A stretch of 64,000 bases of DNA, from positions 1 to 64,000 of the forward strand of contig JAABRE010000008.1 in NCBI GenBank assembly GCA_011391125.1, written 5' to 3'. Positions 2,837-5,163 of the stretch are shown piece by piece; positions within the stretch are counted from its first letter, which is position 1, and each line of letters starts with the position of its first letter. A program made the translations under genes and the position numbers. The stretch comes from Synechococcales cyanobacterium S06 (GTDB lineage: Bacteria > Cyanobacteriota > Cyanobacteriia > Cyanobacteriales > JAABRE01). Under the pieces are notes generated by a model. That model ran no database searches and was not told the origin of the DNA. It worked only from the letters and a program-made list of their open reading frames with translations.

Positions 2837-3520
2837 ATGCGGATAAAAATTTGTGGTATTACTAAACTTGACCAAGCTTTGCAAATTGTGGACGAAGGAG
2901 CTACGGAATTGGGTTTTATTTGTGTGAGGCGATCGCCCCGTTTTATCTCTATACCACAAATAAGTGAAATTGTCAAGGGTTTAGATACAAAAGTTAACAC
3001 AATTGGGGTTTGGGTAAATGAAAGTATTGAAGAAATCATTAAAACAGTATTAGAAACGAAATTAACCTGTGTACAATTACACGGAGATGAAACACCGGAA
3101 TATTGCCAAAAGTTGCGAGCAAAATTACCAGAAAATATGGAATTAATTAAGGCAATTCGAGTTAAAGATAGGGAAACTTTAGCAAGTATTAATAATTATG
3201 CTGATTATGTTAATACATTTTTATTAGATGCGTATCATCCGCAAAATTTTGGTGGGACTGGAACAACATTAGATTGGGAAAATATTCGGGATTTCGAGTT
3301 TCAAAAACCGTGGTTTTTAGCAGGAGGATTAACACCAAATAATATTAAAGATGCACTGAAAAAATTGCAACCAGAGGGGATAGATTTATCTAGTGGAGTA
3401 GAAATTACCCCGGGGGATAAAGACATAGAAAAAGTAAAGCAATTATTTAAAGAATTAAAGGAAATATTACCAGACAAATTAAGGCTGGGGACTAACTTTT
3501 TTGATCAGATAAAAAATTAA
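2837..3520 (+). CDS. trpF: Phosphoribosylanthranilate isomerase
   Basis: Catalyses the Amadori rearrangement of N-(5-phosphoribosyl)anthranilate in tryptophan synthesis. The diagnostic N-terminus MRIKICGITK holds the catalytic Cys. Other family motifs are VQLHGDE, LLDAYHPQNFGGTG (catalytic Asp) and FLAGGLTPNNIKDAL followed by IDLSSGVE. The first in-frame TTG is at 2807, but the family N-terminus begins at the ATG at 2837, giving 227 residues. No other trp gene is nearby, as usual in cyanobacteria. The last 15 residues extend a little past the family norm. Confidence 0.95.
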   Translation: MRIKICGITKLDQALQIVDEGATELGFICVRRSPRFISIPQISEIVKGLDTKVNTIGVWVNESIEEIIKTVLETKLTCVQLHGDETPEYCQKLRAKLPENMELIKAIRVKDRETLASINNYADYVNTFLLDAYHPQNFGGTGTTLDWENIRDFEFQKPWFLAGGLTPNNIKDALKKLQPEGIDLSSGVEITPGDKDIEKVKQLFKELKEILPDKLRLGTNFFDQIKN

Positions 3521-3585: not shown

Positions 3586-3834
3586 TTAAGTTTCCATTTC
3601 TTGAATAATTTTCATGGTTTTATAGTAATTCCAAATAAAAATTAAACAAAAGTTTTTAGTTTGTTGTTGGACTTTAGTCCTAAGAAGCGCTAAAGCGCAA
3701 CTACGAACCTATTTTTCAACTGTTTTAATCTTAATTGGAATCACTATAATACTAACTGTTGTTACCTTCCTTAATAATTCGATTACGGTTTCTTTGTAAT
3801 CAGAAAAACGGTAATTGTCAAATTTTTTGGACAT
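3586..3834 (-). pseudogene. Small ORF of 40 codons interrupted by a MITE
   Basis: On the minus strand an ATG at 3834 opens a frame beginning MSKKFDNYRFSDYKETV that runs into the MITE at 3748. Removing the 128-bp element with one copy of a TA duplication joins codons GTT AGT ATT AAA ACC ATG in frame. The continuation is KTMKIIQEMET and then TAA at 3586-3588. The restored product is 40 residues and of unknown function; I do not recognise it. No Shine-Dalgarno site is obvious, so its status as a real gene rests on the restored frame. Confidence 0.5.
3621..3748. repeat. MITE copy 2 (complete, 128 bp)
   Basis: Begins TATAGTAATTCCAA and ends TTGGAATCACTATA, a 14-bp terminal inverted repeat with one mismatch. 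It contains GGACTTTAGTCC and GCGCTAAAGCGC. The length and the TA-containing ends fit a non-autonomous element moved by an IS630/Tc1-type transposase, which is not present in the window. It interrupts the small ORF at 3586-3834. The remaining sequence between 3835 and 4080 shows no gene I can support. Confidence 0.85.
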
Positions 3835-4080
3835 ATAGCAGTGCTATGTTCGTTGAATACAGACATTGCATTCAACCTCATTTATATTCCCAAGCTAAAG
3901 GAGAAATTTCGGTTAAGGTGGTTATTTCATCTATTACTATTTGGTTTAATCTACTTTTAATTTTGGTGCAACAACAAACGGAGATTTATTTTTTCACCAA
4001 TAATCTTACTGAGGTACTTAGCTTAATCATAAAAAAGTTTATTTTGTTTAAAATAAAGAAAGATAATTGAGGATAAAATA

Positions 4081-4410
4081 ATGAGTAAAACAGTCCTAGA
4101 AATGAAATCAAGTTCCGTGAATTTTGCTGCTCAAATTGAATATCCCGAAGCGGGAATTTTAAGTAAGGTATTACTGAAAGATAATAACTGTCAATATACT
4201 TTATTTTGTTTAGCAGCCGGTACTGATATTTCTGAACATACAGCAGCGCGAAATGCTACAGTTAATGTCCTAGAAGGTGAAGGTATTTTAACTTTAGAAG
4301 GTGCAGAAATTAAGTTAGAAAAAGGTACATTTGTAGTAATGCCAGCCCATGCGCCCCATGCTTTAAATGCGAAGGAAAATCTAGCTTTTTTATTAACGTT
4401 ATCAGAGTAA
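4081..4410 (+). CDS. Cupin-domain protein
   Basis: A single-domain cupin of 109 residues. The two beta-barrel motifs appear as GTDISEHTAARNATVNVLEG and GTFVVMPAHAPHAL, with His residues placed to bind a metal. GAGGAT upstream of the ATG is a good ribosome site. Single-domain cupins of this kind have varied roles and the substrate is not evident. It is convergent with folE across a hairpin terminator. Confidence 0.8.
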   Translation: MSKTVLEMKSSSVNFAAQIEYPEAGILSKVLLKDNNCQYTLFCLAAGTDISEHTAARNATVNVLEGEGILTLEGAEIKLEKGTFVVMPAHAPHALNAKENLAFLLTLSE

Positions 4411-4473: not shown

Positions 4474-5163
4474 TTAAAAGAAATTCGGTTTATGACGAAT
4501 TAAACCAAGGAATTCCTCCCTCGTTTTTTGGTCTTCTTGGAATGATCCTAACATCGCACTGGTGACAGTCCATGAACCGGGTTTTTCAACTCCCCGCATC
4601 ACCATGCACATATGACTAGCTTCCATGACCACCGCGACTCCTTGAGGAGCTAAAATTTCCTGGAGTGCTTCGGCGATTTGGCGAGTTAACCTTTCTTGCA
4701 CTTGCAATCTACGAGAATACATATCCACAATCCGGGCTAATTTGCTCAATCCTACTACTTTTTGATTGGGGATATAAGCGACGTGGGCACGCCCCATAAA
4801 AGGTAACATATGATGTTCACAGAGACTGAAAAAATTAATATCTCTAACCAGGACCATTTCATTGTGTCCCTCATCAAATATAGCGTTATTAACCAATTCC
4901 TCTAAAGATTGATTGTAACCCTGGGTCAAAAATTGCATCGCTTCGGCAACCCGCTTCGGGGTTTTTAACAAACCTTCTCGCTCGGGATCTTCGCCAAGAC
5001 ACTCTATAATCGTTCTAAAAGCGCCCATCATTTTCTCTTTGGACTCTTCGGAAGTGGGGTGATATTCGGCTACTTTTCCATTGTGAGTAGTACGATCTGG
5101 GCGACTCGTTAGTTTTTCAACTAAATTCGGGTTAAGAATATTTTGGTCTGTGCTTGATGTCAT
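4474..5163 (-). CDS. folE: GTP cyclohydrolase I
   Basis: Converts GTP to 7,8-dihydroneopterin triphosphate, the first step to folate and pterins. Family motifs are [13 protein letters not shown], the zinc-binding [27 protein letters not shown] and [14 protein letters not shown]. The protein is 229 residues, usual for the family, with an N-terminal extension of about 25 residues. It is followed on the same strand by the dehydrogenase gene that starts at 5936, 44 bases upstream, so they may be co-transcribed. Confidence 0.96.

Follow-up and report, generated by a model that had tools for sequence, protein, structure and literature searches.

The window, a stretch of 64,000 nucleotides of contig JAABRE010000008.1 of Synechococcales cyanobacterium S06, belongs to a genome assembly of 4.81 Mb in 168 contigs. 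Near one end of the window the genes trpF and folE enclose a small cupin gene and, on the minus strand, the remnant of a DrdV-like gene, which is interrupted by a MITE of 124 bp and bears the truncated end of a second MITE (Table 1).

Table 1. Features of the trpF-folE interval, with positions in the window
Feature	Position	Strand	Basis
trpF (phosphoribosylanthranilate isomerase)	2840..3520	+	PF00697, E 3.9e-47
DrdV-like remnant, last codons (KTMKIIQEMET and stop)	3586..3620	-	no interruption before the upstream part at all 17 paralogous places
TA, copy of the target duplication	3621..3622		ends of copies, single-TA empty sites, spacing in 17 places
MITE, 124 bp, imperfect terminal inverted repeats TAGTAATTCCAA / TTGGAATCACTA	3623..3746		sequence and genomic copies
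TA, other copy of the target duplication	3747..3748		ends of copies, single-TA empty sites, spacing in 17 places
Remnant, C-terminal part (MSKKFDNYRFSDYKETVIELLRKVTTVS...)	3749..3834	-	homologue of the paralogue stretch ...IAEKFNNYRFSDYKETVIDLLKKVTTVS..., with M at an internal position
Second MITE family, truncated end (TATAGCAGTGCTATGTTCGTTG...)	3834..3879		lies where about 21 parent-gene codons are missing
Remnant, upstream part (TKIKSRLNQIVIDEITTLTEISPLAWEYK, then stop)	3875..3967	-	tblastn with 12 paralogue proteins, and DNA matches to 3967
Small cupin gene	4081..4410	+	PF07883, E 2.2e-10
folE (GTP cyclohydrolase I)	4474..5163	-	PF01227, E 1.4e-81; convergent with trpF

The nearest relatives of this trpF are 59% identical at best. 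For comparison, 109 trpF loci were fetched, 29 from the order sample (flanks of up to 1500 bases) and 80 from genome contigs (flanks of up to 4000 bases); some of them are non-cyanobacterial, and some organisms may recur in both sets. A folE match is present in the fetched flank of 25 loci, convergent with trpF in all 25, and it is 70-88% identical in 22. The distance between the trpF and folE matches is 8-193 bp in 16 of these 22 and 256, 392, 493, 521, 1228 and 1688 bp in the other six; in the window it is 957 bp. The fetched flanks of the 109 loci contain no match to the cupin and none at E 1e-5 to the C-terminal 430 residues of one DrdV-like paralogue. Given these absences and the spacing of trpF and folE, the block formed by the remnant and the cupin gene was probably added to a gene pair of older standing, although two relatives have longer intervals. 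The first-pass annotation had pointed to the trpF-cupin junction of related genomes as the place to look for an uninterrupted product, which is found there in 0 of the 109 loci, a set without any member of the genus or family.

Elsewhere in the window, at 133-578, a small gene pair combines a weak, sub-threshold DUF2281 match (E 0.0024) with a PemK/MazF-like toxin (E 3.4e-18) and is a probable type II toxin-antitoxin system.

The reading frame across the MITE

The minus-strand translation of 3834-3575 starts with MSKKFDNYRFSDYKETVIELLRKVTTVSI and continues with 12 MITE-encoded residues, one TAG, further MITE sequence, KTMKIIQEMET and a stop at 3588-3586. When the flanks of the MITE are joined through a single TA, a minus-strand frame of 40 codons from ATG to stop is obtained. 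Translation thus confirms the earlier observation that the piece starting at 3834 and KTMKIIQEMET become continuous once the MITE and one TA are taken out. The same annotation regarded this in-frame join as direct support for a TA duplication. The join is real but, taken alone, it is weak evidence, since the MITE plus one TA measures 126 bp (42 codons) and leaves the frame intact at any site. Under the same joining rule, an ATG frame of at least 40 codons crosses the joined site in six of the 48 MITE copies read, the window copy included.

What lifts the join above chance is that the joined 40 residues have homologues across the junction. A comparison with the own genome gave 28 places at E up to 10, one of them the window itself. 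Seventeen of the others match at E ≤1.1e-4 and all 17 are uninterrupted across the junction: 16 align over residues 2/3 to 38/39 (E 4.5e-15 to 6.6e-11) and one over residues 13-40 (E 1.1e-4). The ten further matches are weak (E 0.01-1.5). Exactly 6 nt separate the conserved codons flanking the junction in 17 of 17 paralogous places, as they do in the window with one TA. Among the alignments listed, the window flanks with one TA match the paralogue loci without a gap at the join, and two loci need one gap downstream of it. The joined reading frame is a real junction, backed by 17 uninterrupted genomic copies. Where the joined window has AAA, all 17 places have GAA or GAG. All of them lack a TA precisely where the MITE inserted, although in five of the 17 a TA lies one base away; a previous G-to-A change must therefore be assumed. 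Pfam returned only DUF2095 for the joined 40 residues (E 0.091, under the cut-off).

The first-pass annotation took the join to point to a lost small gene; on that reading, a free-standing gene of 40 codons was destroyed by the MITE. The joined frame does run from ATG to stop, and for ten of the 17 matches the frame stays below 1000 aa (38-747 aa), with just 38 aa in one of them. However, several of these short frames are located at contig ends, and in the other seven places the match falls within an open frame of 1033-1115 aa, whose C-terminal end is formed by the tail in each of the six that were read. Twelve paralogue proteins, taken from the 17 places, were compared with the window by tblastn. 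All 12 match 3749-3834 (52-72% identity), the alignments of nine of them extending into MITE-encoded residues, and all 12 also match 3875-3967 (42-79% identity), so that further remnant sequence is present upstream, to 3967. Between the two stretches, about 21 of the parent gene's codons are missing. The apparent ATG (3834-3832) aligns with an internal residue of the paralogues and sits at the edge of the second, truncated MITE. A start of its own and homologues of the same small size, as expected of such a gene, are thus not what is seen, and a free-standing small gene is extremely improbable: these 40 codons encode the C-terminal end of a DrdV-like enzyme, and an annotation that was plausible but wrong is corrected.

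The truncated MITE at 3834-3879 is 83-85% identical to four other places of the genome. Complete copies of this second family measure 101-102 bp, read TATAGCA...TTGCTATA and contain an inner palindrome. A PIN-domain remnant had also been considered on the plus strand at 3850-4000; Pfam was empty in that frame, and the minus strand there is the restriction-enzyme remnant.

The parent family of restriction-modification enzymes

The parent was first assigned to Type ISP after the Pfam name of its C-terminal domain, and that assignment was abandoned because of the match to PDB 7lo5 and the absence of a helicase. Three full-length paralogues contain ISP_coupler, N6_Mtase/Eco57I and Type_ISP_C domains according to Pfam, which reports no helicase family in any of the three. 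The SF2 helicase-like ATPase that Type ISP enzymes carry in the same chain was thus not found in them. Two full-length paralogues match 7lo5 with E 2.1e-297 and 2.3e-292, and one is aligned to it at query residues 8-839 and 911-1085 of 1087. The structure 7LO5 is that of DrdV, termed Type IIL in one published account (PMC11842806) and Type IIG in another (PMC10201449). The paralogues show the nuclease, coupler, N6-adenine methyltransferase and target recognition parts in a single chain of about 1000 aa, as expected of such enzymes; Pfam reported no nuclease domain in the three, and the nuclease part is assigned from the way they align with 7lo5. Two paralogues had no NCBIfam match above the cut-off. 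On these likenesses of sequence, the parent of the remnant is a DrdV-like single-chain restriction-modification enzyme of Type IIG/IIL. The resemblance to DrdV extends over most of the chain of a paralogue, whereas in the window nothing but a broken C-terminal piece is left.

The same two paralogues gave weaker matches to LlaGI and LlaBIII in the PDB comparison. The coupler, methyltransferase and target-recognition domains of these Type ISP enzymes (PMC4666363, PMC4872093) are homologous to those of the paralogues. However, the three full-length paralogues are about 500 aa shorter than LlaBIII and have no helicase domain reported.

The own genome contains 36 Type_ISP_C matches in about 33 places, and 39 candidates were counted at first look. 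Other genomes of the order, among those listed, have at most ten DrdV/ISP-type candidates each, and 90 of the 190 genomes match at all. The number of DrdV/ISP-type restriction genes and fragments in this genome is thus unusually large. High numbers of restriction systems have been reported for bloom-forming cyanobacteria (PMC8262939). At L021:4-1623 and L256:3708-5717, DrdV/ISP-type proteins contain interspersed repeats whose in-frame translation is SPHPVGEGLGVR (or SPHPAGEGLGVR); by eye, a similar-looking DNA repeat lies upstream of trpF at 2628-2667 of the window.

MITE copies, target sites and the resident IS630 element

A 40-nt core of the MITE has 160 matches (70 + 90) in the genome at up to three mismatches, with none for the reversed control, and the end sequence has 357 matches at up to one mismatch against seven for its control. 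The 48 copies read, window copy included, were taken from loci chosen for a best or exact match and are hence biased towards well-preserved copies; seven occurrences were skipped, their ends not being found or their flanks being shorter than 150 bases. Counting both TAs, 47 of the 48 measure 128 bp, and the remaining one, whose left end is degenerate, measures 122. A clean TA is present on both ends in 46 copies, the exceptions being one with GA/TA and the one with the degenerate left end. The sequence is identical in 31 of the 48, that is, in the window copy and in 30 of the 47 others. All six frames of the 124-bp MITE contain stops, from one to seven per frame; the minus-strand frame used here has a single one, after 12 MITE codons. 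The element is thus short, non-coding and high-copy, with terminal inverted repeats. One strand folds better than shuffled sequences (z -3.2), as its inverted ends already imply. Target sites showed no palindromic preference (1.89 matches observed, shuffled mean 1.84, n=44).

In the order sample, 48 of 190 genomes, the own one included, match the MITE. The matches listed are concentrated in its inner part (roughly positions 30-105 of 128), a small number of short ones lying at the ends; among them, the whole MITE was not found in another genome. The inner part, at 3653-3726 of the window, resembles short repeats, some of them tandem, in other genomes of the order.

The duplication of the target TA, which the first-pass annotation had proposed as in IS630/Tc1 elements, is supported by the clean TA ends of the 46 copies and by empty sites with one TA. 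Gapless empty sites of this kind were found for the copies in L008, L051, L042 and L068; L008 and L051 share the same host repeat and carry the MITE in opposite orientations. The empty-site match of L020 has one gap, away from the join. All these empty sites are paralogous and none is orthologous, the compared genomes including no other member of the genus or family. Paralogues of the same genome, used as empty sites, offer a clean way to settle such cases where there is no relative. Alternatively, the TA flanks could belong to the element itself, without any target duplication. Nearly all copies are flanked by TA on both sides and so cannot discriminate by themselves, and a TA at the exact site of the window is missing from the 17 paralogues. 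However, this alternative requires a deletion of 2 nt at the window's site, and the gapless one-TA empty sites of the other copies speak against it as well; we regard it as barely conceivable.

The genome also contains an IS630-family element (L234, L235) of 949-950 bp counting both TAs, with ends TATAGTAATTCC...GGAATCACTATA and with the domains HTH_Tnp_IS630 (PF01710) and DDE_3 (PF13358). It shares about 20 bp with the MITE at each end, and only there. The assignment of the MITE to IS630/Tc1 is thus supported: an IS630 element with the same ends resides in the same genome. The exact end TATAGTRATTCC is found at the matching position in nine of the 22 genomic DDE_3 places; the others have no such end there, have a version with one mismatch or are cut by contig ends. 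The transposase of both complete copies that were read has its HTH and DDE parts spread over two overlapping frames. The frame of L234 and L235 is split at an A-rich run, possibly a case of programmed frameshifting.

The element belongs to the type I MITEs, within the IS630/Tc1-mariner group, and lies in a pseudogene whose restriction-enzyme family is expanded; to judge from its ends it would fit mobilization by a predicted ISY100-like transposase. According to its published description, ISY100 (ISTcSa) of Synechocystis, an IS630/Tc1-mariner element, is likewise cyanobacterial, about 950 bp long and provided with a DDE-type transposase, short terminal inverted repeats and a TA target duplication (PMC2170065). 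However, the same description (PMC2170065) gives ISY100 a single transposase of 282 aa, whereas the resident IS630 element has two overlapping frames. The MITEs of Anabaena sp. 90 are likewise high-copy and cyanobacterial, but their authors classify them as type II, no insertion sequence with common ends being described for them (PMC3542288), in contrast with the type I MITE of the window. A high-copy cyanobacterial MITE is thereby tied to a resident IS630 element.

Order of events at the locus

The homology across the junction, the exact spacing, the TA flanks, the copy number and the resident insertion sequence with matching ends are all observed features. We consider, with a probability of roughly 0.94, that the locus combines the decayed 3' end of a DrdV-like gene, an older MITE now truncated, and a later 124-bp MITE that duplicated a TA and was mobilized in trans. 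On the minus strand, 3586-3967 is what decay has left of the 3' end of a Type IIG/IIL gene of the DrdV kind, lodged together with the cupin gene in the trpF-folE interval. A MITE that is probably older, and now truncated, occupies the place of about 21 missing codons. The 124-bp MITE, probably the later one, inserted at a TA some eleven codons ahead of the stop and duplicated this TA. Its ends point to the resident IS630-family element, whose transposase most likely mobilized it in trans, presumably by a cut-and-paste reaction at TA like that of ISY100. For the order of the two MITE insertions, divergence is the only indication. Some observations count against this combination: one previous substitution is needed, the likeness of the MITE to the IS630 element is limited to about 20 bp per end, and the resident transposase lies in two overlapping frames in the two complete copies read.

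The 124-bp MITE may instead have hit a complete DrdV-like gene near its 3' end, the gene being lost later. The enzyme would then have carried a MITE-encoded tail of 12 residues replacing its last 11, and the position of the only stop in the MITE frame would indeed yield a product of nearly the same length. However, the window MITE is identical to most of the other copies read, while the remnant has a stop, lacks codons and bears a diverged second MITE, which suggests that the gene died first. Such an insertion into a complete gene is therefore unlikely, and the gene was probably no longer functional when the 124-bp MITE entered it.

MITEs and 3' remnants might also be regarded not as plain debris but as a source of swapped C-terminal tails that alter restriction-enzyme function. 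The frame-neutral 126 bp, the one-stop frame after twelve codons and the presence of about 30 related genes and fragments would be in line with such a role, which we nevertheless consider a very long shot.

Both in-frame fusions and gene inactivation by MITEs have been reviewed (PMC10969869), and in Anabaena sp. 90, 15 of 147 MITEs are reported inside disrupted ORFs (PMC3542288). Four other copies of the window MITE (L025, L065, L047 and L053) give ATG frames of 75-230 codons when their flanks are joined and likely interrupt genes. Another DrdV-like gene, in L068 (contig C84, near base 320), is interrupted in its N-terminal part by a further copy of this MITE, whose empty site is intact in two paralogues, L254 and L263; the four places that resemble the second, truncated MITE of the window are L196, L197, L198 and L200.
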